Part shown: piece by piece, positions 5,590 through 23,198 of the stretch
Layout: the number at the start of each line of letters is the position of its first letter
Position numbering within the stretch: position 1 is the stretch's first letter
DNA from: a virus
Direction: 5' to 3' (one strand)
IMG/VR virus record: IMGVR_UViG_3300009375_001133
Location: 1-23,198 of that record
Length of the DNA: 23,198 nt
Notes under the pieces: generated by a model
The model's database searches: none
What the model was told of the DNA's origin: nothing
Seen by the model: only the letters and a program-made list of their open reading frames with translations
Position numbers and translations under genes: made by a program

Positions 5590-5597
5590 TATTTATA
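5590..5597 (-). promoter_or_regulatory. Candidate T4-type late promoter element upstream of gp25
   Basis: An exact TATAAATA on the minus strand lies in the short gap between the PAAR gene and gp25, 25 bp before the gp25 ATG. In T4 this octamer alone defines late promoters recognised by gp55-bearing RNA polymerase with gp33. The octamer is expected several times by chance in AT-rich DNA of this size, so its support is the intergenic placement. Confidence 0.5.
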
Positions 5598-5896: not shown

Positions 5897-7834
5897 CTAT
5901 ACGATTTTTGAAACATCAAACGCTTTGTTTGTAGGCAATATTGAGGATAGCTCTTTGTTTTTCTTGGTGCTGTTTGTTCCTCCTGATAATATAGATCGAG
6001 CAAAACGGGTGTTAGCTTCTGTTCCAGGCTGACACTTCCAACGACCGCCTCCTGCTTTACACGCAGCTTCTGTGCTTGCCATAAAATCTGATCCGCCGTG
6101 ACAATTACAAGTTTCAATATTACTATAATCGCCAGTAGCTTCAGCAGTTTTTATCTTATCTAATGTATCGTTGAATCCGCCAGATAGTGCATCATTACCA
6201 AATTGAAACTTCGCTCCATCTCCTGCTTTATTAAAAATACCAGTAGCTAACTCTGCAAAATCTATTGGAATATCTGGTGCACTTGCAGCAGATCGAGACG
6301 GAGATGATGGATGTTTAACTGGTGTGATTTTTGCAACTGGTGATGAAGAAGCTGCTCCAACAACAGCTGGAGCACGAGGTTTAGTAGCAGCAACAGGTTT
6401 TAGAGCAGGTGCGTCTTTACCTGACCCTGCGCCTCCACCGCTGAATGTAGAACTTGCAATACCTTCAGGAGACGTCATCTCTTTGAATTCGTTAGCAGTC
6501 ATCGTGTTAACGCTCCACGTGCCTCCGCTCTCTTCACAACCAGCTTTATCGTTCCGAGACATAAATTGAGAAGCATCACCACCACTACAATTACCAACTG
6601 CTACCGTTCCTCCGTTATTGCCAATACCTCCCGCAAGTTCTGGTGCAAAATCCACAAGCTCTTTATTAGAAGCAAACTGAGCAACTGCATCATTTAATGG
6701 GTTATTTCCTCCTAAAATTTTATCTGCGAATCCAACTGGAGACACTGGCATTCCAGCAACTGCCCCATTAGGAGCTTCATTAGCTGTATCTGGTATCTCC
6801 CATTTTCCACTATCTGAATCAAACTCCATCGGCACTGTTTTAGTTTCAGTGCAAACCCATCTACCACCGTTTGCTAAACAGTCCCCTTCGTTAGTGTCCA
6901 TTGGATCACCACCGTGACAAACACAGCTTTTACCTGATCCGCCAAATGCAGGTAATGCATTCAGGTAATTAGAAAACGGCATAGCGCCTTCCTGTGCAGC
7001 TTGTCTAAAGTTTGGATTTGTGATAGCAGCTTCAGGTGAAAATGCAGGAGCTGCAACATCTGTTACATCAGCCAACGCAGGTAATCCAGAAGTTGCGTCT
7101 TTATACAAACTGATAATATCATCCATCACTGGTTCAGTGATATGAGAAAGCATCTTATTATTGTTTACAAGTCCACAAGGATCTGATGTTGCCATTTTTG
7201 CAAATGCTGCCCATTGCGACAGCTTATTCATTGTGTCAATTATTGTTGCGAGGTCTTTGGATATAAGTTTGTCCATTCCGCTATGAATTGAATCACATAT
7301 ACCTTGCGCATCACCCAACAATCCTTGGATGATGTCCATATTCATTATAACGTTGCTTAATTTTGCTGGGTTAGTTGCGTCATTGATAACTTGTTGAACA
7401 CGGTCTTGAATCTGTGGAAGATCGGCAAGCCCCATTGCATCATCTAAAACACCTTTCGAATCAAATAATGTAGCGAAACCAGCCACACAATCAAGCATAT
7501 CTGATCCTTTACCTAACTTATTTGATAATTCTCTACCTGCTTGCTGAATACCTGTGTTTTTAATGAAGTCTGTTGTTGCTGCTTGTAACGCATCCCCTGC
7601 ATAGTCACCACATTTGGTTAGATCAGCTGATAATTGATCAACTGCACCAATTGTATCTGCAAATGATGAATAGTCGTCAGGAAACGCTTGTTGCATAGCA
7701 TAAGAATCAATTCGCGATCCCATTTGCATGGCGGTAGCTGCACTTTTAATACTATCGACACTGCTCCATGCAGGTGATTTTAGTTCTTTACCAATTCCAC
7801 CTAATGCATCATTTATGTCGTTAAAAAAGCCCAT
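5897..7834 (-). CDS. Unrecognised structural protein with three Cys-Trp modules
   Basis: A 645-residue protein that I cannot assign to a T4 gene. Residues 1-290 look mostly helical (many short amphipathic Asp/Ala/Leu stretches). The rest is Gly/Ala/Pro/Ser-rich with three copies of a cysteine module: C304-V-C306-H-G-G ... C319-x6-W326-V-C328, C416 ... C433-x6-W440, and C576-N-C578-H-G-G ... C592-x6-W599-K-C601. Copies 1 and 3 are complete; copy 2 has lost the leading C-x-C and the trailing Cys. A flexible Ala/Pro/Ser linker spans about 465-522. It lies between the gp5-like spike gene (13-nt gap) and the PAAR tip gene, so a virion role at the hub, spike or distal baseplate is likely by context. 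T4 has no obvious counterpart at this position. Confidence 0.9.
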   Translation of the reverse strand: MGFFNDINDALGGIGKELKSPAWSSVDSIKSAATAMQMGSRIDSYAMQQAFPDDYSSFADTIGAVDQLSADLTKCGDYAGDALQAATTDFIKNTGIQQAGRELSNKLGKGSDMLDCVAGFATLFDSKGVLDDAMGLADLPQIQDRVQQVINDATNPAKLSNVIMNMDIIQGLLGDAQGICDSIHSGMDKLISKDLATIIDTMNKLSQWAAFAKMATSDPCGLVNNNKMLSHITEPVMDDIISLYKDATSGLPALADVTDVAAPAFSPEAAITNPNFRQAAQEGAMPFSNYLNALPAFGGSGKSCVCHGGDPMDTNEGDCLANGGRWVCTETKTVPMEFDSDSGKWEIPDTANEAPNGAVAGMPVSPVGFADKILGGNNPLNDAVAQFASNKELVDFAPELAGGIGNNGGTVAVGNCSGGDASQFMSRNDKAGCEESGGTWSVNTMTANEFKEMTSPEGIASSTFSGGGAGSGKDAPALKPVAATKPRAPAVVGAASSSPVAKITPVKHPSSPSRSAASAPDIPIDFAELATGIFNKAGDGAKFQFGNDALSGGFNDTLDKIKTAEATGDYSNIETCNCHGGSDFMASTEAACKAGGGRWKCQPGTEANTRFARSILSGGTNSTKKNKELSSILPTNKAFDVSKIV

Positions 7835-10695: not shown

Positions 10696-11637
10696 TTAGT
10701 ATCCTGCTCCTATTCCCTGCGCGTAAATAGCTTCAATCTCTTTAAGAGTTATTGTGATTGTGGTTTCCATAGGAGTGCCGTCCATATGAGCCTGCCAATG
10801 TCCGTTAGGAGTGTAATTCACTTCAAAGGCAGTAATAAATGATGGTGCGATTTTGAACAACGAGTGGTTGACAGTTCCATCAACGAGGAATTCTACCTTA
10901 ACTGTTGGAGGAATAGTTAAGGTTGATATGTTTTCATTAGCCCAGTTAACAGCATCTTCTCCATATTCAACCAAAGAGTCCCACATTCCCTTTTCTTCTT
11001 TATCAGTGGCAGCAGCTGCAGCGTCTTTCTGCCCTTGTGCTTTTGCATCTTCGCCGCTTTCAATTAACCCTTTAACATCCGCAGGACTTAGATTTTCTTT
11101 GGCAGGTGTAGCAGCAGCTTTTATTGCTGTCACAATACTCATAACATCTCTTTGTTCAGAAGCTGATCTAGGAGTTAGTTTCCACGAGAATGTATGTTCT
11201 CTTAGTTGCGCACCCTTATATTCTACACCAGCTTTGTTGTTCAAGATACTTCTTTGTGCCATTGCCGCTGATGCATTACCAGCAACAACTGCATTCGCCA
11301 TTCTTGAGATTTGTGTCACACCAGCAGCTGCATGACCTTTTGCTGCTGCTAAAGCTACTTCTCCAGCATACCCCAACTTAGTGTCGCTTGGTGTGATGTT
11401 GTTTCTAAAGTAATCCATTCCATCAACATCATCAAAAAGACCACGATATGCTGTACCAATTTGTTCTGGATATGGTAGAAAAAGTCCTACCATAGGAGAG
11501 CTCGTCATAGTTTCGTTACCACATTCGCCTGACGCAAGCGGAATAGACGACACTGCTTTCTGCCAACCTTCGAATATAATCTGTGTTTGAAATCCGCCAG
11601 TCGAATCTAAATCTGCTGGAAAAGTGTATGTTTTCAT
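10696..11637 (-). CDS. gp48: Baseplate tail-tube cap, gp48/gp54 family
   Basis: A 313-residue protein of the T4 gp48/gp54 family, tube-fold proteins that sit on the hub and start tail tube growth. The family pattern is strong at the C-terminus (FEVNYTPNGHWQAHMDGTP followed by METTITITLKEIEAI, residues 271-305) and in REHTFSWKLTPRSASEQRDV near 146-165. An Ala/Lys/Glu-rich insert lies at about 174-225. I favour gp48 because a second, shorter tube-family gene at 12879 better fits gp54, but the two could be swapped. It is the first gene of the leftward operon, with a 36-nt leader from the palindromic late promoter and an AGGA ribosome site before ATG. Confidence 0.82.
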   Translation of the reverse strand: MKTYTFPADLDSTGGFQTQIIFEGWQKAVSSIPLASGECGNETMTSSPMVGLFLPYPEQIGTAYRGLFDDVDGMDYFRNNITPSDTKLGYAGEVALAAAKGHAAAGVTQISRMANAVVAGNASAAMAQRSILNNKAGVEYKGAQLREHTFSWKLTPRSASEQRDVMSIVTAIKAAATPAKENLSPADVKGLIESGEDAKAQGQKDAAAAATDKEEKGMWDSLVEYGEDAVNWANENISTLTIPPTVKVEFLVDGTVNHSLFKIAPSFITAFEVNYTPNGHWQAHMDGTPMETTITITLKEIEAIYAQGIGAGY

Positions 11638-11672
11638 ATGATGTCCTGATTGCTATGAAAAGTGTATGAGAC

Positions 11673-11686
11673 TATTTATATAAATA
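11673..11686. promoter_or_regulatory. Divergent overlapping late promoters in one 14-bp palindrome
   Basis: TATTTATATAAATA is perfectly self-complementary, so TATAAATA (the T4 late promoter -10 element) reads on the plus strand at 11679-11686 and on the minus strand at 11680-11673. It lies in the 55-bp spacer between the divergent starts of the leftward baseplate operon (11637) and the rightward operon (11693). No other promoter-like element was seen in the spacer. Leftward, the start site would lie about 30 nt before the tube-cap ATG. Rightward, it would fall almost at the gp4 ATG. Confidence 0.75.
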
Positions 11687-11692
11687 TCTAGG

Positions 11693-12133
11693 ATGGCACA
11701 TAAAGGAAAATATCGCGTTAGAAACCGCGAGAAATATGTTGGAAATGTTGATAGCGTTACTTATAGATCGTCTTGGGAGAGAAGGTTTATGGTATATTGT
11801 GACAACAATCCCTCCATAATTCAGTGGAACAGTGAAGAGGTAGTAATTCCTTACTTTAGCCCAGTTGATAATAAAATGCATAGGTATTTTGTGGATTTTC
11901 TTATCAAGCTGCAAAAAGTTGATGGATCGTTTCAACATGTATTGATTGAAGTGAAGCCTGATAAAGAAACGCGTCCTCCTGTGATGGGAAAGACAAAGAA
12001 AAGCAGATACAGATATTTAAGAGAGTTGCGCACTTGGAAGGTAAACGAAGCGAAGTGGGCAGCAGCGGAGGAATTCTGCGAAGATAGAAAGTGGGATTTT
12101 AAGATTTTAACAGAACATCATTTAGTTAAGTAG
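11693..12133 (+). CDS. gp4: Head completion protein gp4 (gp50/4)
   Basis: A 146-residue protein of the T4 gp4 head-completion family, which finishes the filled head before tail joining. The family N-terminus is clear (KGKYRVRNREKYVG, SVTYRSSWERRFMVYCDNN), then IQWNSEEVVIPYFSPVDNK and VDFLIKLQ, VLIEVKPDKE. The acidic/Lys pattern (D ... E-V-K) resembles TnsA-like/PD-(D/E)XK nuclease folds, which have been noted for this family; activity is inferred. The length agrees with T4 gp4 (150 residues). The ATG follows the late -10 element by only 6 bp, so the message may be leaderless or nearly so; AGG directly abuts the ATG. Confidence 0.93.
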   Translation: MAHKGKYRVRNREKYVGNVDSVTYRSSWERRFMVYCDNNPSIIQWNSEEVVIPYFSPVDNKMHRYFVDFLIKLQKVDGSFQHVLIEVKPDKETRPPVMGKTKKSRYRYLRELRTWKVNEAKWAAAEEFCEDRKWDFKILTEHHLVK

Positions 12134-12135
12134 AT

Positions 12136-12879
12136 ATGCCAAAGATTTCAATACCTAAAGGAATGACTATGCGAGCTAGTGACGGTAATACGTATCGTTG
12201 GCTTGGTGCGCAGTGGCTGAAAGTATCGGCTGTAACCAATAAAACCTCGCGTATTGCTGCTAGACGAATTGGAAAAGAGCTCACTGATAGAGCATTAACG
12301 CCAAAACAAAAAGGCAATATTAGAAGGCTGAAAAAAGCGTACACCTCAACAAAAAAAGGAATCAAGACCGCCAAAAAACTTAGTACTGCAGCAAGGCGGC
12401 GGGCATCTGCGGCGTGGTTTGAAATAAAAGTAGGAGAGATGGCAAGAGGGTTTAATCCAACCAAGTCCTTATCTCCTGGTTCAATGTACACGTTTGCATA
12501 TAGTGCAAAACATAAGAAAACACTTCCTTATTGGGATAAGTTTCCGCTAATAGTTGTGTTAGACGTGACTAAGGATGGGTTCCTTGGTTTAAATTTTCAT
12601 TATCTACGTCCTGTACAAAGAGAGGCGTTCTTGAATAGTATATTAAAGTTTGCTACCGAAAAAGGGGATCCAACTCAATTTTCCTCCAAAGCTCAGTTTA
12701 ATATAACGTGGGGGGCTGTTAAAAGTATTGCAGGGGCTGATAAGATGATACATAAATATCTTTACAGTCACGTAAAATCTTCGATGTTAGAATCGCCGCC
12801 TAGTGAATGGGAAAATGTAATTTATATGCCTTACCAAAAGTTTGTTGGTGAAAGCGCAAAAACTATTTGGAGTAAATAA
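12136..12879 (+). CDS. gp2: gp2-like DNA end protector (tentative)
   Basis: A 247-residue protein directly after gp4 (2-nt gap), where T4 places gene 2 beside gene 4. T4 gp2 binds packaged DNA ends and shields them from RecBCD. The C-terminal half has a pattern I associate with gp2-annotated proteins of T4-like phages: LSPGSMYTFAYSAKHKKTLP, then YWDKFPLIVVLD and GFLGLNFHYLRP (about residues 113-158). The N-terminal 28 residues (ASDGNTYRWLGAQW) form a separate small motif, followed by a very basic region (about 40-100, many Lys/Arg) suited to nucleic acid binding. The gene is certain; the gp2 name rests on context and partial recognition. Confidence 0.6.
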   Translation: MPKISIPKGMTMRASDGNTYRWLGAQWLKVSAVTNKTSRIAARRIGKELTDRALTPKQKGNIRRLKKAYTSTKKGIKTAKKLSTAARRRASAAWFEIKVGEMARGFNPTKSLSPGSMYTFAYSAKHKKTLPYWDKFPLIVVLDVTKDGFLGLNFHYLRPVQREAFLNSILKFATEKGDPTQFSSKAQFNITWGAVKSIAGADKMIHKYLYSHVKSSMLESPPSEWENVIYMPYQKFVGESAKTIWSK

Positions 12880-13448
12880 TGAAAGTTGATAATTTTGCCA
12901 ATCAATTTCAAGCAGGGGATCTTGCTCGAAACAATCTATTTGAAGTGTCTATTGGTCTGCACAGCCGTCACGCTCAGCAAGACTTTTACAACAGTGGAGA
13001 TAGTACAGATATTGACGATCTTAGATTCATGATCAAAGACGCCCAACTTCCTGGCAAGAGTCTTGGTGTTGTAGAAAGTAGGAGGTTTGGTGCTGTAGAT
13101 AAACACGCAAATGATGTTATTTTAGATAATGCCACGTGGACAGTGATGTGCTCAGAAGATTTAAGAGAACGTGCATTTTTTGAAGGATGGATAAATTGGA
13201 TTCATGGACGTGGGGTTAGAGACTCATCGTCTGCTCTGTATAGATATAGGTATCACGACGAGTACGTTTCTAACATAAATATACAGATGTTTAACAGAAG
13301 AGGAGAGCCTTCTACCGGTGTTACGTTATATGAGGCCTTTCCTGTAAACATAGGAGCAGTTGAATTGTCGTGGGTCAATGAGGGATCGTTTTCAACTTTT
13401 ACCGTATCAATAGCGTTTAAAGATTGGAAAGAATTTGGCGCTGACTGA
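12879..13448 (+). CDS. gp54: Tail-tube fold protein, gp19/gp54 family (likely gp54 initiator)
   Basis: A 189-residue protein of the T4 gp19 superfamily. The N-terminus (NFANQFQAGDLARNNLFEVSI) and the order DAQLPGKSLGVVESRRFG, then TWTVMCSEDLRERAFFEGWI, then VTLYEAFPVNIGAVELSW and FTVSIAFKDWKEF match tube and tube-initiator proteins. Tail sheath and capsid genes are absent nearby and a hub assembly gene follows, so I prefer the baseplate-tube initiator gp54 over the major tube gp19. T4 gp19 is 163 residues and gp54 is 320, so length alone favours gp19. The start overlaps the previous stop by one base (TAATG). Confidence 0.75.
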   Translation: MKVDNFANQFQAGDLARNNLFEVSIGLHSRHAQQDFYNSGDSTDIDDLRFMIKDAQLPGKSLGVVESRRFGAVDKHANDVILDNATWTVMCSEDLRERAFFEGWINWIHGRGVRDSSSALYRYRYHDEYVSNINIQMFNRRGEPSTGVTLYEAFPVNIGAVELSWVNEGSFSTFTVSIAFKDWKEFGAD

Positions 13449-13476
13449 TGTTTTTATAATATAGGATGAATAAATT

Positions 13477-14217
13477 ATGTTACCAAAATTAGATATACCA
13501 ACTTATAAGTTACAAGTACCATCAACTAATAAAACAGTTGAATATAGACCCTTCTTAGTTAAGGAAGAGAAAGTTCTTTTAACTATGATGGAAGGACTTG
13601 ATGAGGATAATGCAGATGCAGTTGTTAAAGAAGCAATTGAGAAGGTTATTACTAATTGTATTATTACAGACGGTTTAAATATCAAGAAGTTGACGCTGTT
13701 TGATCAAGATTATATGTTCTTACAAATTAGATCTAAATCGCGAGGAGAGTCGATAGATCCCGTGTTTGAGTGTGTTAACGAGGTTGGTGGAAAACGATGT
13801 GGGCATGAAAACACTGTTCATATCGACCTAAATGATGTTGGAGTCGTGTTTCCAGAGGAAGACCTTTCAAAGGTTGAAATTACAGATTCAATTGGTATTC
13901 AGTTTAAATACCTTGATTCAGCAACGGCTTCTCAGCACGATAAAATAGAGGACACGGTTGATAGACTATTTAAGATTATGGTAGATTCGATTGATTATAT
14001 CTACGACAACGAACAGATTTATAAGGGGTCAGAAACTCCTAAAAAAGAGCTGTTAGATTTTATTGAGAATCTAACAGAAGATGCGTTTAAGAGGGTGAAG
14101 CAATTTTTCGACGAGCAGCCTGTTGTTAAACACATCGCGCATTATAAATGCGAAAAATGCGGTTATGAAGAGGATATTCCTTTTATAGGATCAGAGGCTT
14201 TTTTCGGTTATGCATGA
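13477..14217 (+). CDS. gp26: Baseplate hub assembly protein gp26-like
   Basis: A 246-residue protein of the T4 baseplate family PF12322 (T4 gp26), acting in hub assembly. Features are the N-terminal LPKLDIPTYKLQVPSTNKTV, a helical region TMMEGLDEDNADAVVKEAIE, and two cysteine pairs likely to bind zinc: C99 with C108 (CVNEVGGKRCGH) and C225-E-K-C228-G near the C-terminus. An AGGATG ribosome site precedes the ATG. The last codons read GAG GCT TTT TTC GGT TAT GCA TGA. They contain a T TTT TTC slippery heptamer in the correct register, and the next ORF lies in the -1 frame, so part of the product is probably extended into the 14214-14378 ORF. Position between a tube protein and the tape-measure candidate matches a tail assembly chaperone. 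Confidence 0.9.
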   Translation: MLPKLDIPTYKLQVPSTNKTVEYRPFLVKEEKVLLTMMEGLDEDNADAVVKEAIEKVITNCIITDGLNIKKLTLFDQDYMFLQIRSKSRGESIDPVFECVNEVGGKRCGHENTVHIDLNDVGVVFPEEDLSKVEITDSIGIQFKYLDSATASQHDKIEDTVDRLFKIMVDSIDYIYDNEQIYKGSETPKKELLDFIENLTEDAFKRVKQFFDEQPVVKHIAHYKCEKCGYEEDIPFIGSEAFFGYA

Positions 14218-14266
14218 GTCAAGATAATTTGATGAATTATTATCAAACTAACTTTCAACTCATGCA
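14199..14266 (+). promoter_or_regulatory. Candidate -1 programmed ribosomal frameshift site
   Basis: The heptamer T TTT TTC occupies 14199-14205 with gp26-like codons TTT (14200) and TTC (14203), the X XXY YYZ register. After a 5-nt spacer, TGCATGAGT (14211-14219) can pair without mismatch with ACTCATGCA (14258-14266). The 38-nt loop contains a second stem GATAAT/ATTATC (14223-14228 with 14239-14244). Slippage gives ...EAFF-RLC-MSQDN..., continuing with no stop into the 54-codon ORF and yielding a protein of about 300 residues. Spacer length, stem and frame all fit bacterial -1 frameshift signals. Confidence 0.75.
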
Positions 14267-14378
14267 GCACCATAATTATTCTTTGACAGACATTGAAGGC
14301 ATGCTTCCTTATGAGCGTGAAATATATGTAGGATTACTTTCAAACTTTTTGAAAGAACAAAGAGATAATACGTTATAG
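14214..14378 (+). CDS. 54-codon ORF in -1 frame after gp26-like gene (chaperone extension)
   Basis: An open frame of 54 codons beginning ATGAGTCAAGAT, overlapping the gp26-like stop by 4 bases (ATGA). No Shine-Dalgarno sequence precedes it (TTTTTTCGGTTATGC), so independent initiation looks poor. The peptide is MSQDNLMNYYQTNF..., with YSLTDIEGMLPYEREIYVGL at residues 23-42. That compact motif, with a buried Pro-Tyr-Glu-Arg helix start, resembles the small proteins (GT-type extension, Mu gp42-like, P2 E') encoded after tail assembly chaperones and before tape measures. It is most likely expressed as a -1 frameshift fusion to the gp26-like protein, with termination-reinitiation as the alternative. 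The position corresponds to T4 gene 51, a much longer unrelated-looking hub assembly factor. Confidence 0.82.
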   Translation: MSQDNLMNYYQTNFQLMQHHNYSLTDIEGMLPYEREIYVGLLSNFLKEQRDNTL

Positions 14379-14390
14379 AGGTGTAAGACC

Positions 14391-17300
14391 ATGCCAGACC
14401 AGTCAGAACAAGAACAAGTAAATGCTTTACAAGGCGTTATTGATGAATTAAAAATTATCAATCAACGAGAGGTTCATCGCTCAAAGTCCACCGATTCTAT
14501 TCGAGCGACTGGTCGAAAAAGACAACGTACTGTCAATGATGCTAAACTACTAGCTGGAGAAATTTCAGCAGCGCAGCTAAATGGCATGACGCCTGAGGTT
14601 CGTGCACGGTGGGAAACAGCTGTCGGTGACGCTGAAATCGGAACAGAAGAAAATACTTCTGATATTGCAAAAGAGCTGAGAGACCACACTGGATTGATGA
14701 TCGAGCATCATGGTCGTCAATCAAAGTTACAGCGATGGTTAAACGGGATTCAAGGGGTTCAAATGGCTCGTCGCCGTGCACGCGAGCAACAAGAAAGTGT
14801 TCAGTACAGAGCACAAATCCACACGGCGAACCAAAACTATGTGATGTTGGATTTAATATCACAACAATTAGGCTCGATTCATAGTACTTTACGAAACGAA
14901 ACAGCAGAACAAGCGCAATATAGACAAAAGCATCTTAAAATTACACAACATGAAATGTTGGAGAGAGAAGCTGGTCTTCAGGCAACTTTAGAAAAGCTGT
15001 CGCCTGAAAAGTACTTGCTTGGTTTTAATAATTGGTTCACAAAGGGCTCTGGTCTGTCTGCATTATCTTCAATGATGGTTGGTAGCCATGAATCTGTTGT
15101 AACGCGTTCTGATCTTACCAAACAAATTAAAGAACAAGCAGAGAAGCAACATGTAAAAACTGAAAAGGGGGTAGATAAAGATGGCAACCCTATAGTTGAT
15201 GTAAATCATCAAGAGTGGGGCGATCTTACAAAAGAACAAAAAGGGTTCTTAGGCATTAAAGGCGCTTACAGAGAACTTCGTAACAGAAAAGGTGGATCCA
15301 AAGACATCAACGAGCTTATAGAGATGGAAGAGGAGATGCTTAAGGAGGGCATCAAAACAAGCCTTGAAACGAAACAGCGAATCTTTAAAAAGGGGTTAGA
15401 TGAAGGATACCAAACTGAAATACTAAACGACAACCAGAAAGCTGATTGGATGATCGAAACTGGCACATCAATGCCAATAGGTAAGGATGGTGCAGGACCT
15501 TATAATTTAGGGCCTGGAGGTAATAGCGGTTTTTCTAAAGTAACAGAATGTTGTGAAGCAACTCAAGACATATTAGCAGACATTTTAGACGTTAATAAAG
15601 ACGATCTTAATTTTGCAAGAAAAGGAGACAAGAGGGACGAAAAGAGAGCTCGAAGAGAGCTTGAAGATCGCCGTGATAAACTTCAAGATTATGCAAAAAA
15701 TACAGGACCTATGTCTGAGGCTTTGTATAAATCTAACCGTAGCAAAGGCGGTCAACCAAAAGATCAAGCTGATGGGTTGGCTTGGGAGATGTTGGCAGGC
15801 GGAGGAGTCAGTGCTGGTGTTGTAGGTTGGGGAGTTAAAAAATATAAAGACGTTGTAGCGAATAAAGACGTTGTAGCGAAAGGCGCACAGAAACCTGCGA
15901 AAGGAAAACCAAGTGCGAAAGGTGCAGGCAAAGGTGGCGATAAGGCTGCGAAAAAAGCTCAAGAAGGAATAGTCAAACGCATTAAGAAAATTCTAAAAAA
16001 GAAGGGCGGCAAAGGCGCTGCAATGTGGTTATATAAGAAATTAGTTACCAAAGTAGGTATCACTACTGCTCTAGCAGCCATGAGTGGCTTTTTACCGACT
16101 GGTGTTACTCAAATTATCGCTGCTGGTGCAATCGCTTATTCAGCGTATGAAATTTACAACGCACTGGATGAAATTGAAAAAGAGTTGGAGGAAGAGTCTG
16201 TTGTTACAGGATCATCTACCGTTAGTGTTGAATCTATATCTCCAAAAGACAGACAGAGAATAGCTAAGATTGTAAAAGATAGTAATAGTGATACTGGCGG
16301 TCTTGATTACTTGGGTATTAAAGATCCAAATGTAGATCCTGCTCGCAAAAGGCAAGGGAATGAATCTTTTTCTGATTATGTTGGAAGACGTAAAAAAGAA
16401 GTAGGATTTAAACATGATGATGTACCAACAGTAGCAGCTCAAACTTCTAAGAAGTCTCTTTGGTCTAAAGTTGATGAAAAGACATTAAAAGATGCAACAG
16501 TTGCTTATCATCTAGCTAATAATCAGTTAACAGAGTTTGAGTCTAAGAACAAATTTTCAGCAGGATATAATGATTGGTTGGATTATGGGATATTGTCTGG
16601 AGAAGATGCACCTAGTGCATTTGATGATCCTAAATTGGATGAAGAATATGATCAGTTGCTTGGCAAAAGAGGCGCTGCACAAACAACGAAGAAAACACAG
16701 TTGGAAAAATATAAACAACACAAGTTTGGCATTCATCCAAAAGAGAGAGGTTCCAGAGCTTGGATTAGATCGCTTAACCGAAAAAAATATAACACCCATA
16801 TGGATCATGCAACTGGTCGTTGGTGGAACAGGAGTCAAGGGATTGAAGATGGCACATCAGCTCCGTGGGGCAAGGACCAGAAAAAAGCTGCACAAGATGC
16901 ACTACAGAGGGAAGCAATGGGTGGATTATCTGTAGAGGATTTAGTACAAGGAATTGATTCAGTCACTGGCGACACAGGAATGATCGATAAAGCTAATCAA
17001 GCATTGGTACATGCTGATGATGGTCCTAACAACTCTCTTGGTGTTAATCTTCATAATCCTGAAGATATTGCAAAACATATTGCTGAAAAGTTCCCACGTG
17101 ACCCTAATAAGCCTGGTAAGTATAAACCTGATGGTTGGTTGAATTCCAAAGATTATAGTGATTTCCAAAGGTCTCAGGGCGGTAAAGAAGCTGAATATCG
17201 TAAGTGGTTGGAAATTCAACGCAAGAAAGATGTGCAGCAAGCTCGTATGCATGAAAAGGGTATGCAGGGCGGTAAAGGGCAGAAATGGGGAGTTCCAGAA

Positions 17301-18272
17301 GGCGACCGTAAATTCCTTCGCACAACTAATCCTCTAACAGCTCAGAAGTTACCACCTGTAAATGGCATCCCACAACATATGTCAACAGAAGAGAAGTTGA
17401 GAATATTGGACAATGCAAAGGGACGTCCGATGAAGCAGTTAGGGTTTGACTTCGCAGGTGATAGAGGAGGTCCTACTAGATACGCTAGTGAGTACGGCGT
17501 ACCTAAAACAAAAACTCCAACGTGGTTGAAAGTTTTAAAGTGGCTAGGTCCAATTGGCGTTGGTGCTGAAATTGGTGATGCAACAGCTCCTTACTTCTTT
17601 GAGAAAACCGGATCTGTTGTGGATGAGGGTGGCAGAAAGACGGGATTTGAAAGAACGCAAGAATCTATAAAAGAGTCTATTACAGAATTGTTGTCTGGAG
17701 TGGGAGATGGTGAAGGATTTAATGAATCTTCAGGTGGTCTTCTTGCAGCATCTTTATTAGGAGCGTCTTTGGGCAACGAAGAGTGGGTATATAGAGGCAA
17801 ACAAGGTAAGCCTATGAGCCCTGATGAGTTAAAAACTGCTAAAGCAAAAGCCAAATCAATGTCATTTAGAAAAGCACTTGAAGCTGACAAGGCTCATAAA
17901 TTCGATCCACATTATAAGGGTCCTGGTAAAACATATAATCCACTCAAGTACGCGCAAACTGGTGGTACACCAGCTAGCAGAACTTTGTTTGAAAAAGGTA
18001 AATTAAAAGGTGGTAAACTGGGTACATTACTAGCAGTGTTCACTCTTGCTACTCAGTTCGGTGAAGAGGGCGACAAATACGTTAGACAATTAATGACTGA
18101 TATAGGTGTTAAGTATAACGAATTAACGAATACGCAAGAGACAAATACAAATGCTTCTCAACAACCAGTGATTGTTAATAATACAAGCAACGTAAGCAAT
18201 GGATCGACTGCAGTTGTTACACCATCTACTGCTCATGCACCAGGAGCCCCTGCAGGACTTAATCCGTTCTAG
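14391..18272 (+). CDS. Very large tail protein, tape-measure candidate (gp29 position)
   Basis: A 1293-residue protein, the largest complete one here, starting 12 nt after the 54-codon ORF with a GAGGTG ribosome site. The N-terminal third is highly charged and helical, with Gln/Glu/Arg-rich likely coiled coil (about residues 1-230). A Lys/Ala/Gly-rich segment (about 495-550) precedes a hydrophobic stretch at about 554-582 (VGITTALAAMSGFLPTGVTQ and following). Further hydrophobic patches lie near 465, 1053, 1114-1128 and 1210-1225. The tail is Asn/Ser/Thr-rich (QPVIVNNTSNVSNGSTAV). Coiled coil plus hydrophobic patches plus its place after a chaperone pair fits a tape measure, the role of T4 gp29 (590 residues). 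I see no enzymatic motif. An internal virion protein ejected with DNA is the main alternative. Confidence 0.7.
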   Translation: MPDQSEQEQVNALQGVIDELKIINQREVHRSKSTDSIRATGRKRQRTVNDAKLLAGEISAAQLNGMTPEVRARWETAVGDAEIGTEENTSDIAKELRDHTGLMIEHHGRQSKLQRWLNGIQGVQMARRRAREQQESVQYRAQIHTANQNYVMLDLISQQLGSIHSTLRNETAEQAQYRQKHLKITQHEMLEREAGLQATLEKLSPEKYLLGFNNWFTKGSGLSALSSMMVGSHESVVTRSDLTKQIKEQAEKQHVKTEKGVDKDGNPIVDVNHQEWGDLTKEQKGFLGIKGAYRELRNRKGGSKDINELIEMEEEMLKEGIKTSLETKQRIFKKGLDEGYQTEILNDNQKADWMIETGTSMPIGKDGAGPYNLGPGGNSGFSKVTECCEATQDILADILDVNKDDLNFARKGDKRDEKRARRELEDRRDKLQDYAKNTGPMSEALYKSNRSKGGQPKDQADGLAWEMLAGGGVSAGVVGWGVKKYKDVVANKDVVAKGAQKPAKGKPSAKGAGKGGDKAAKKAQEGIVKRIKKILKKKGGKGAAMWLYKKLVTKVGITTALAAMSGFLPTGVTQIIAAGAIAYSAYEIYNALDEIEKELEEESVVTGSSTVSVESISPKDRQRIAKIVKDSNSDTGGLDYLGIKDPNVDPARKRQGNESFSDYVGRRKKEVGFKHDDVPTVAAQTSKKSLWSKVDEKTLKDATVAYHLANNQLTEFESKNKFSAGYNDWLDYGILSGEDAPSAFDDPKLDEEYDQLLGKRGAAQTTKKTQLEKYKQHKFGIHPKERGSRAWIRSLNRKKYNTHMDHATGRWWNRSQGIEDGTSAPWGKDQKKAAQDALQREAMGGLSVEDLVQGIDSVTGDTGMIDKANQALVHADDGPNNSLGVNLHNPEDIAKHIAEKFPRDPNKPGKYKPDGWLNSKDYSDFQRSQGGKEAEYRKWLEIQRKKDVQQARMHEKGMQGGKGQKWGVPEGDRKFLRTTNPLTAQKLPPVNGIPQHMSTEEKLRILDNAKGRPMKQLGFDFAGDRGGPTRYASEYGVPKTKTPTWLKVLKWLGPIGVGAEIGDATAPYFFEKTGSVVDEGGRKTGFERTQESIKESITELLSGVGDGEGFNESSGGLLAASLLGASLGNEEWVYRGKQGKPMSPDELKTAKAKAKSMSFRKALEADKAHKFDPHYKGPGKTYNPLKYAQTGGTPASRTLFEKGKLKGGKLGTLLAVFTLATQFGEEGDKYVRQLMTDIGVKYNELTNTQETNTNASQQPVIVNNTSNVSNGSTAVVTPSTAHAPGAPAGLNPF
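15845..15880 (+). repeat. Perfect 18-bp tandem direct repeat inside the tape-measure candidate
   Basis: TAAAGACGTTGTAGCGAA occurs twice back to back (15845-15862 and 15863-15880). The unit is a multiple of three and encodes KDVVAN then KDVVAK at the start of the Lys/Ala-rich linker. It looks like an in-frame duplication. Confidence 0.9.
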
Positions 18273-19238: not shown

Positions 19239-19297
19239 ATTACTTCTCCTATATTGATTTGAGGTGCATTTTACTGCTTACCTATTTAACGATTTAT

Positions 19298-19320
19298 GTG
19301 GATTAGAGTGACCACCCACT
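19298..19320 (-). promoter_or_regulatory. Possible pseudoknot operator upstream of gp32
   Basis: In the minus-strand RNA, AGUG (19320-19317) can pair with CACU (19310-19307), and GUGG in the loop (19315-19312) can pair with CCAC (19301-19298), forming an H-type pseudoknot. It ends 60 nt before the gp32 ATG, and an A/U-rich stretch with little structure follows. T4 gp32 represses its own mRNA by nucleating on a pseudoknot at a similar place. The stems are only 4 bp each, so this is a candidate. Confidence 0.4.
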
Positions 19321-19328
19321 ATGACTTT

Positions 19329-19556
19329 TTACTCCGCAGAATCCTCATCTGCAACTGGAGCAGGTGCGTCATCACCTTCCATAGACGTTTTAACTGCTTG
19401 CGCAAAACCTGCACGTGCCATCTCCAAACGCTGCTGCTCCTTATCAATTGCAACCAAATGTTCAATTGCAACACGAGCAATATCTGGTAGAGAATCTACT
19501 TCATAATTCTTACCGTCAATCTTTACAGTGTTCTGTACTTCTACTGTCTCACTCAT
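19329..19556 (-). CDS. DUF6447-like small phage protein
   Basis: A 75-residue protein whose pattern VKIDGKNYEVDSLPDIARVA, then LVAIDKEQQRLEMARAGFAQ, matches small DUF6447-type proteins common in marine T4-like phages (an IDGK-Y-LDSL motif, then a helix rich in Glu/Gln/Leu). The function is unknown. I chose the ATG at 19556 (MSETVEVQ) because AAGGAGAG lies 8-10 nt upstream; an ATG 30 bases further upstream lacks such a site. It lies just upstream of gp32 in the same direction. The C-terminal 15 residues are Ala/Pro/Asp/Glu-rich and probably disordered. Confidence 0.82.
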   Translation of the reverse strand: MSETVEVQNTVKIDGKNYEVDSLPDIARVAIEHLVAIDKEQQRLEMARAGFAQAVKTSMEGDDAPAPVADEDSAE

Positions 19557-19578
19557 TATATACTCTCCTTGAGTTATA

Positions 19579-19758
19579 TTATACAAATTCTCTTTCGAGT
19601 TCCATAACCAACTGAATCATACTATCTATCCTATGACTCAAATCAGTATCGCCGCCACCATCAGACTGCTTATTTATATCACGAACCAACTTGCATTCGT
19701 CCATAAGCGCTCTTAATTTAATTACGCATTGTTGTTCATTGTGTAATTTACCGTCCAT
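19579..19758 (-). CDS. Small hypothetical protein, 59 residues
   Basis: A short ORF starting MDGKLHNEQQ and ending MIQLVMELEREFV, not recognised. A strong ribosome site (GGGAGGAG) is placed 8 nt before the ATG and the frame fills the gap between thyX (6-nt gap) and the DUF6447-like gene, so it is probably real. It looks all-helical with a Gly/Asp turn (SDGGGDTD) in the middle. The ATG is embedded in the TATAAT box of a near-consensus promoter, so transcripts from that promoter would start inside this gene and could not encode the full protein. It would be translated from upstream read-through. Confidence 0.75.
   Translation of the reverse strand: MDGKLHNEQQCVIKLRALMDECKLVRDINKQSDGGGDTDLSHRIDSMIQLVMELEREFV
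19671..19678 (-). promoter_or_regulatory. Weak candidate late promoter element inside the 59-residue ORF
   Basis: An exact TATAAATA on the minus strand lies 115 bp upstream of the DUF6447-like start and could give a late transcript of that gene and gp32. It is inside coding sequence and such octamers occur by chance at this base composition. Confidence 0.2.
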
Positions 19759-19785
19759 TATACTCTACTCCTCCCTAAAAGTCAA
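19757..19785 (-). promoter_or_regulatory. sigma70-type promoter at the thyX end, toward gp32
   Basis: On the minus strand, TTGACT (19785-19780), a 17-bp spacer and TATAAT (19762-19757). This is one mismatch from the full consensus with ideal spacing. It overlaps the 3' end of thyX and the first base pairs of the 59-residue ORF. The expected start near 19750 would give a transcript for the DUF6447-like gene and gp32 separate from thyX. Confidence 0.75.
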
Positions 19786-20956: not shown

Positions 20957-21560
20957 TTACAAACACTCCTTTCATTATTTTTTCATACTGTTTCACATTG
21001 AAATTCATAAACTCTGCATATCTATCACATTTGTATTGCAATTCAGGATATACATATCGTTCAGTGATTTTCTTTTTAAACATCTCACTGAATCCTAATA
21101 CTTTATCAAGCAGTATATAGGTTTCAATTGATATCATTTTTTGAAGAAGAAACCTGAATACCACAGGATGCTCTCCTTCATTCACTTTAAACAACTCGTC
21201 AAACGTAATATCCCTATCTCTAACAAATTGTTTTATATCTTTCGCTTCTTGCTCAAACAAATACGAAAGACTTTGAACTCTCTTTTTCCACTCAACATAA
21301 TGAGTTTCTGATGTGCTTGAATCCATGTCACCGACCCACATCGTTTCTTCCTCCACAAAATTAGCTACATAAAATTGCAGTAAGTCTGTTGGTCTCTTCT
21401 GTCCTAACTTCTCAAAGAAGTACCTGTCTCTTCGATTCTGGTAAGTTGACACCTTCGGGGTGCGTGTTTTACCTCCATATTTTACATAATTGTAATCATT
21501 ATTAGAATCAAAATGACTCTTTACACTAAGATAGAGTTTATATGCTTCAAATCCATTCAC
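20943..21560 (-). CDS. gp59: Replicative helicase loader gp59
   Basis: A 205-residue homologue of T4 gp59, which loads the gp41 helicase onto gp32-coated forked DNA. Matching segments are AYKLYLSVKSHF (6-17), YNYVKYGGKTR, YQNRRDRYFFEKLGQK (40-55), then VANFVEEETMWVGDM and FRFLLQKMISIETYILLDKV in the C-terminal domain. T4 gp59 is 217 residues. The start codon is GTG at 21560 and overlaps the gp33 stop as GTGA, so translation is coupled. The order gp33-gp59-(thyX)-gp32 follows T4, and gp59 binds gp32 directly. Confidence 0.95.
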   Translation of the reverse strand: MNGFEAYKLYLSVKSHFDSNNDYNYVKYGGKTRTPKVSTYQNRRDRYFFEKLGQKRPTDLLQFYVANFVEEETMWVGDMDSSTSETHYVEWKKRVQSLSYLFEQEAKDIKQFVRDRDITFDELFKVNEGEHPVVFRFLLQKMISIETYILLDKVLGFSEMFKKKITERYVYPELQYKCDRYAEFMNFNVKQYEKIMKGVFVNANE

Positions 21561-21793
21561 AGAGGCAAGGTCGCTGTATCACAATCTTTACTCAAGAGAT
21601 TCGCTTTTGTACATTCAACCAATAGTTTTTCTTCAAGTATTGGAGATATCAGCTTTCTGACATGATGAGGTTCGACTTGGTTCTCCTCCATATACTCGCA
21701 AATTGCTTCTATATATGTTATACCGCCTCTTACCATCTTCTCTATCATAAACTGAAATTGCTGCTGTTTACTTGCTTTCTTTGTTTGAGCCAT
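21557..21793 (-). CDS. gp33: Late transcription coactivator gp33
   Basis: A 78-residue gp33-type protein that bridges RNA polymerase and the gp45 sliding clamp to activate late promoters. The pattern matches gp33 of marine T4-like phages: FMIEKMVRGGITYIEAICEY (15-34), then EPHHVRKLISPILEEKLLVE, and the LL...LP[IL] C-terminus ending TATLPL, the clamp-binding motif region. T4 gp33 is 112 residues. The ribosome site is GGGGAGA. Together with the TATAAATA elements this implies a T4-type late transcription programme; gp55 must lie elsewhere. Confidence 0.9.
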   Translation of the reverse strand: MAQTKKASKQQQFQFMIEKMVRGGITYIEAICEYMEENQVEPHHVRKLISPILEEKLLVECTKANLLSKDCDTATLPL

Positions 21794-22656: not shown

Positions 22657-22938
22657 TTATAGTTGCTCTAACTGCTTGTTTACAGTAGTAATTGCTTCGT
22701 ATGCCTCTTGGAAATCTTCTTGATGAGAAACTTCCTCAGCAAAATTACGCATATGCCATACTTTTGCTAATTGGCGAATCAGTTTCTTTGGTAGTCCGTG
22801 GTCATCATAAATTGCTTGAACCACGTCCTTGATATGTTCTTGTTCTGCTTCAATACGAGTCTTTGAGTCAGAAATCTGTTGAAGTGCTGTATCAATTTTC
22901 TTTAGATCAGCTGGGTTTGATGGCATCATTACGCTCAT
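22657..22938 (-). CDS. dsbA: Double-stranded DNA-binding protein DsbA-like
   Basis: A 93-residue protein resembling T4 DsbA (89 residues), a small dsDNA-binding protein that enhances late transcription in T4. Similar pattern: a helix with a polar repeat (QQISDSKTRIEAEQEHIKDV), a short turn (DDHGLPKKLIRQLAKVWHMR), then an acidic C-terminal helix (EDFQEAYEAITTVN). The order dsbA-(inserts)-33-59-32 equals the T4 order, which is the best support. It starts at the ATG preceded by AGGAGAAAATGC, with a near-consensus promoter 34 bp upstream. Confidence 0.75.
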   Translation of the reverse strand: MSVMMPSNPADLKKIDTALQQISDSKTRIEAEQEHIKDVVQAIYDDHGLPKKLIRQLAKVWHMRNFAEEVSHQEDFQEAYEAITTVNKQLEQL

Positions 22939-22971
22939 GCATTTTCTCCTATTTGTTGAAATGATGAGGGT

Positions 22972-23000
22972 ATTATACTAGATTTTGTTGTTAAGGTCAA
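22972..23000 (-). promoter_or_regulatory. sigma70-type promoter for dsbA
   Basis: On the minus strand, TTGACC (23000-22995), a 17-bp spacer and TATAAT (22977-22972) give near-perfect consensus. The leader to the dsbA ATG is about 27 nt and holds an AGGAGAA ribosome site. Confidence 0.85.
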
Positions 23001-23008
23001 CATTAATC

Positions 23009-23028
23009 CCCCCACATTTCTGTGGGGG
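23009..23028 (-). other. GC-rich hairpin with GAAA loop upstream of the dsbA promoter
   Basis: On the minus strand, CCCCCACA / TGTGGGGG pair perfectly (8 bp) around a GAAA tetraloop, 17 nt after the stop of the edge ORF and 8 bp before the dsbA -35 box. No U-tract follows, so it is not a standard intrinsic terminator. It could stabilise the 3' end of the upstream message or separate the two units. Confidence 0.7.
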
Positions 23029-23045
23029 CGTTACGCAACAATTAG

Positions 23046-23198
23046 TTATTCTACTTCCATCTCCTGTAGAATCTCTTCATTTGTTTTTGCTTTATGATGT
23101 TCAACAGGACAACCACAAGAATATCCTTCTTGATTCTCGTGCTTATCTGCTTGTTCCATATGCCATTTTGCGATGGCTCTGTGTTGTTCTGGTTTCAT
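23046..23198 (-). CDS. Small Cys/His protein at right edge, possibly partial
   Basis: An open frame of 50 codons ending in TAA at 23046. The highest ATG coincides with the last base of the window, so the true start may lie outside. The sequence begins MKPEQHRAIAKWHMEQADKH and continues through a CGC-PVEHH segment, where C28, C30, H34 and H35 could form a metal site; the C-terminus is acidic (EEILQEMEVE). I do not recognise it. It reads in the same direction as dsbA. Confidence 0.6.
   Translation of the reverse strand: MKPEQHRAIAKWHMEQADKHENQEGYSCGCPVEHHKAKTNEEILQEMEVE

Follow-up and report, generated by a model that had tools for sequence, protein, structure and literature searches.

The window, a viral DNA stretch of 23,198 nucleotides, is organised in gene blocks that run leftward up to position 11637, rightward from 11693 to 18272 and leftward again from 18330. 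The first two are separated by a 55-bp spacer, which is the only divergent one, as the preliminary description held; there is no evident second divergent spacer in the window, nor any evident divergent gene in 22939-23198. Downstream of the tail-tube-cap gene, the left block encodes baseplate-wedge, hub/lysozyme, PAAR and additional wedge proteins. The right block encodes gp4, gp2, a tube-like protein, a hub protein and a 1293-residue protein. The view that each side carries one half of a baseplate/tail set needs correction: the first genes of the right operon serve head completion and DNA-end protection, not the baseplate. The 1293-residue ORF (14391-18272) and a 645-residue ORF (5897-7834), both within structural blocks, have no PHROG or Pfam match. 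The gp4 protein matches the Pfam family Tn7_TnsA-like_N (E 4e-26), and thus the head-completion protein has, by profile, an endonuclease-like fold. Rfam and tRNA scans of the window returned zero matches, and a sigma-70 scan gave no match at the spacer. The features discussed below are listed in Table 1.

Table 1 Features of the divergent spacer, its flanking genes and the late-transcription functions in the window
Feature	Coordinates	Strand	Evidence or remark
Single late octamer, 24 nt upstream of a gp25-like gene, inside the leftward operon (putative internal promoter)	5590..5597	-	octamer match
Tail-tube-cap gene (T4_tail_cap), opens the leftward operon	10696..11637	-	phrog_230, PF11091
Divergent spacer, 55 bp	11638..11692	.	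between - ORF 10696-11637 and + ORF 11693-12133
AGGA, Shine-Dalgarno-like, ahead of the tube-cap gene	11644..11647	-	sequence
Perfect 14-bp palindrome TATTTATATAAATA, two T4-type late promoter octamers joined back to back	11673..11686	.	49/49 clade loci
Leftward late octamer TATAAATA	11673..11680	-	predicted start near 11667; predicted leader about 30 nt
Rightward late octamer TATAAATA	11679..11686	+	ends 6 nt before gp4 ATG; predicted start 11692
gp4 head-completion gene, opens the rightward operon, without Shine-Dalgarno	11693..12133	+	phrog_218
gp2, DNA end protector, second in the rightward operon after gp4	12136..12879	+	phrog_429
gp33, late-transcription co-activator	21557..21793	-	phrog_254
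DsbA-like late-promoter-associated DNA-binding protein	22657..22938	-	phrog_639, PF11126

The spacer contains an exact, fully self-complementary match to TATTTATATAAATA, the longest perfect palindrome in the window. Its halves are T4-type late promoter octamers, as TATAAATA occurs exactly on both strands (NATAAATA is the cyanophage form), with an overlap of 2 bp. The structure proposed in the preliminary description was thus reproduced in full. Both octamers lie upstream of virion genes, one encoding the tube cap and the other gp4. Late-transcription functions are also represented: gp33 is encoded in the window, and gp55 homologues are present in the four longest contigs of the clade defined below (E 1e-22 to 1e-25), the phage's own gp55 lying outside the fragment. 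The palindrome had been proposed to control both structural operons as a single site. This is only partly right, since a late-type octamer also occurs inside the left operon (Table 1). A lone TATAAATA is found at 19671-19678 (minus strand), inside a 526-bp stretch without a convincing gene (19239-19764) located between gp32 and a thymidylate-synthase-like ORF. In clade contigs, most of the other octamers are found 15-100 nt ahead of a gene bearing a Shine-Dalgarno sequence. An upstream TATTTA was considered as a part of every clade late promoter and rejected, as most other octamers of these contigs have differing upstream sequences.

Relatives of gp4 were gathered by protein homology only, together with database records, keeping the best 80 per query, so that the clade is sampled and not exhausted. 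The resulting set comprises 179 distinct proteins with at least 60 nt of upstream DNA. The clade was delimited where identity to the query proteins is discontinuous: its members have at least 66.9%, all others at most 62.5%. Gene starts in the relatives were assigned by simple rules. Loci found by the palindrome pattern itself were left out of the conservation count because they had been selected for the palindrome. Among the best 80 relatives per query, the exact palindrome is present upstream of all 49 distinct clade gp4 genes and of none of the 130 genes outside the clade; between the tube-cap and gp4 genes of clade members, where the preliminary description had suggested looking for conservation, the site is therefore invariant, and the outcome named there as a refutation, loss of the palindrome beside conserved flanking genes, was not observed. 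On the gp4 tree, the palindrome requires one change, corresponding to a single origin (SH-aLRT 99). When the clade was collapsed at 90% gp4 DNA identity into 32 clusters, 14/14 palindrome columns were invariant, in contrast to 0/13 four-fold-degenerate gp4 columns with invariant amino acids. Likewise, the tube-cap protein and the remainder of the spacer have diverged in the clade, whereas the palindrome has not. Perfect symmetry extends beyond 14 bp in 23 of the 49 clade members, reaching 28 bp. Twenty-six clade contigs were scanned for copies of the palindrome, and each carries one, except for a single contig with two. The second copy (L110:1429-1442, on the contig of L001) is located 23 nt from the beginning of a 147-residue ORF preceded by GGAGG.

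These data leave hardly any room for a functionless AT-rich palindrome arisen by chance. The count of octamers, 5 in the window against 1.6 expected, would by itself be compatible with chance; such modest enrichment is weak evidence for a promoter, as had been said of a lone octamer in the preliminary description. In contrast, only 0.00045 copies of the palindrome are expected in the window under a first-order Markov model, its repeated unit is the known late octamer, and it is kept in 49 distinct genes with a strict placement at the gp4 start. At the level of sequence comparison the palindrome is not a chance product, and conservation is what decides. Very probably it acts as a late promoter in both directions; its sequence is the same throughout a whole group of related viruses.

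The T4 late octamer occupies positions -13 to -6 relative to the start (PMC1524935). The same spacing predicts a leftward start near 11667 and a rightward start at 11692, in agreement with the 5' ends (11666 and 11692) proposed in the preliminary description. The two sides differ, however, in a way that the description, while arriving at what remains the best reading, two divergent late promoters, had missed: on the plus strand, transcription is predicted to begin right at the gp4 start codon, 1 nt ahead of the ATG. The distance from octamer end to gp4 ATG is 6 nt in 45 of the 49 clade genes, and 5, 7, 7 and 8 nt in the others. The intervening gap features 20 different 6-mers, and in 44 of the 49 genes a purine occupies the sixth position past the octamer. 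Such a gap, constant in length but not in sequence, would be needed if transcription started at the AUG. None of the 49 clade genes has a 4-nt Shine-Dalgarno match before gp4. With the T4 start-site spacing applied to an octamer 6 nt from the ATG, the gp4 mRNA is predicted to be leaderless, or nearly so. Placement of the gp4 start elsewhere was rejected, as the N-terminal A-Y/H-K/S-G-K motif recurs in T4 gp4 and, in the window, the palindrome includes an in-frame TAA. A two-way late promoter might also serve a gp4 gene that is not leaderless, with transcription starting elsewhere (e.g., -1 to -3 further upstream) or with gp4 translated mainly from leadered read-through transcripts. The start-site distance is borrowed from T4, and the four deviating clade spacings could be taken in this sense. 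Yet any start downstream of an octamer placed 6 nt before the ATG would leave few nucleotides and no room for a Shine-Dalgarno sequence, and a fixed spacing of variable sequence is hard to explain without a start at the AUG. We regard this alternative as improbable.

On the leftward side, the predicted leader ranges from 22 to 54 nt across the clade, and a Shine-Dalgarno match of at least 4 nt precedes 40 of 46 clade left genes. No relatives were retrieved when viral contigs were searched with the tube-cap protein, whose divergence is too rapid for this. We dropped the idea that the left gene differs from one relative to the next, as the left ORFs resemble divergent tube caps with changing N-termini, a likeness judged by eye from shared motifs and not by profile search.

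In long clade contigs, an octamer abuts the start codon of a second gene type, which encodes a phrog_45 tail-tube relative and is located between gp23 and uvsY. Identification of this gene as the main tail tube gene (gp19) is disfavoured, since another phrog_45 protein is encoded between the sheath and portal genes; that second protein, the gp23-uvsY position and cyanophage matches that are often annotated as gp3 led us to prefer the designation gp3-like. Homologues were fetched by protein similarity, and 41 distinct proteins had at least 50% identity. TATAAATA ends exactly 5 nt before the ATG in 36 of the 41, 8 nt before it in 2, and is absent in 3. In distant homologues (about 30% identity), late-like elements are found 17-28 nt away, or none at all. 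Among the gp3-like genes (for instance L107:7822-8304 and homologues among L450-L520), the abutting octamer often comes straight after an intrinsic terminator. In a distinct gp4 lineage (L040, L053, L055, L056, L065, L066, L076 and L080), CTAAATA lies 4-5 nt before the ATG and there is no palindrome. Given this lineage and the gp3-like case, the abutting design probably arose more than once, as far as the sequences tell, and with this second gene, late mRNAs without a leader would seem to form a conserved class. Fused octamers also occur in other forms. Upstream of gp4 in L278, they are joined the opposite way, toe to toe (TATAAATATTTATA), and are followed by AAAGG and a leader, while in L270 the octamers are fused back to back in a shorter form (TATTTATAAATA), 4 nt ahead of the gp4 ATG.

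The gp3-like genes also bear on a reading in which the leftward octamer is the sole promoter, the right half is kept for another reason, such as the binding of a dimeric regulator (e.g., the DsbA-like protein) over the promoter, and gp4 is transcribed from farther upstream. The arrangement in outgroups, where a leftward element adjoins gp4 and the gp4 promoter lies 25-45 nt upstream, is in line with this possibility, which we nonetheless consider rather unlikely. Against it, the right half matches the late octamer exactly and keeps its distance from the ATG while the sequence in the gap varies, a purine occupies the predicted start, and the gp3-like gene has the same kind of abutting octamer with neither a palindrome nor a divergent gene. 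Moreover, no shared alternative plus-strand element is seen upstream of clade gp4: [ACT]TAAATA occurs on the plus strand within 250 nt of the gene in 22 of 49 clade members, at no shared short distance. We therefore favour, with good though not full confidence, the palindrome as a two-way T4-type late promoter from which gp4 mRNA would start at the AUG or one base before it and be leaderless.

From these features we infer the 5' ends, the use of gp55, mutual exclusion and leaderless translation. A gp55-carrying polymerase would bind the palindrome in one of two orientations. In the leftward one, it would produce a leadered mRNA with a Shine-Dalgarno sequence for the tube-cap/baseplate operon; in the rightward one, the message would begin at or beside the gp4 AUG and be translated without a leader. 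The two orientations would exclude each other because the octamers overlap by 2 bp. At bidirectional promoters of E. coli, the two directions compete to noticeable effect mainly where one of them is under strong activation (PMC12825309), and mutual exclusion is accordingly no more than plausible. Leaderless mRNAs are usually less well translated, and thus gp4 could additionally be carried on a longer transcript from upstream. More broadly, we lean towards the view that, across a large T4-like phage clade, fusion of a late promoter to the start codons of two assembly-completion genes, gp4 and the gp3-like gene, defines a conserved leaderless class, and that the gp4 palindrome, by giving leadered and leaderless mRNAs, sets an unequal output of the two operons. 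If this is true, one polymerase site would give unequal output of two virion operons. A clade-wide two-way late promoter abutting a start codon, along with a second abutting promoter, predicts leaderless late mRNAs in T4-like phages, and would tie promoter geometry to the translation level of low-copy head and tail completion proteins. In addition, the 14 bp of the palindrome provide a natural system in which to study how polymerases compete at a symmetrical promoter with no need of a -35 element.

T4 late transcription is a textbook system, the promoters of which are described as simple octamers. The preliminary description used T4, with its generally single promoters, as a simple contrast, but the 47-bp T4 gp4/gp53 spacer holds two divergent late octamers. 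As in the window, TATAAATA is found on each strand and gp4 faces a divergent tail gene. In T4, however, the octamers are separate and face to face (TATAAATA-TATTATC-TATTTATA), whereas those in the window are fused back to back; furthermore, T4 gp4 has a leader with AAGGAG, and the gp4 side in the window is predicted to have none. The marine T4-like phages Melnitz, P-SSM2 and S-PM2 are similar in that gp4 opens a plus-strand block next to a divergent gene, with late-like elements on both strands of a short spacer. Here too the elements are separate, toe to toe, and the plus element is located 25-43 nt before gp4. By simple motif match within 75 nt, the toe-to-toe order was found at 52 of the 130 outgroup gp4 genes, including those of T4, Melnitz and P-SSM2. 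It seems that in the clade the leftward element stayed beside gp4 and the rightward one is fused behind it, a direction of change that we infer.

Known leaderless mRNAs of phages and bacteria share with gp4 a 5' end at or beside the AUG, which is predicted here, and the lack of a Shine-Dalgarno sequence; in the open-access literature, we found none driven by a T4-type late promoter. In bacteria, symmetrical sigma-70 -10 elements give bidirectional promoters (Warman et al.; PMC10268837, PMC12825309), and divergent starts 7-25 bp apart are counted as one such promoter (PMC10268837, PMC12825309), a range that the 25 bp predicted for the window just reaches. The likeness lies in a single symmetrical core element with two mutually exclusive polymerase orientations, which in the window are predicted. 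The element differs, being a phage late octamer in the window and TATAAT in the sigma-70 promoters, as does the distance between starts, predicted to be 25 bp in the window compared with the usual 18. Unlike its sigma-70 counterparts, the window palindrome is perfect, clade-wide and placed with one side abutting a start codon.
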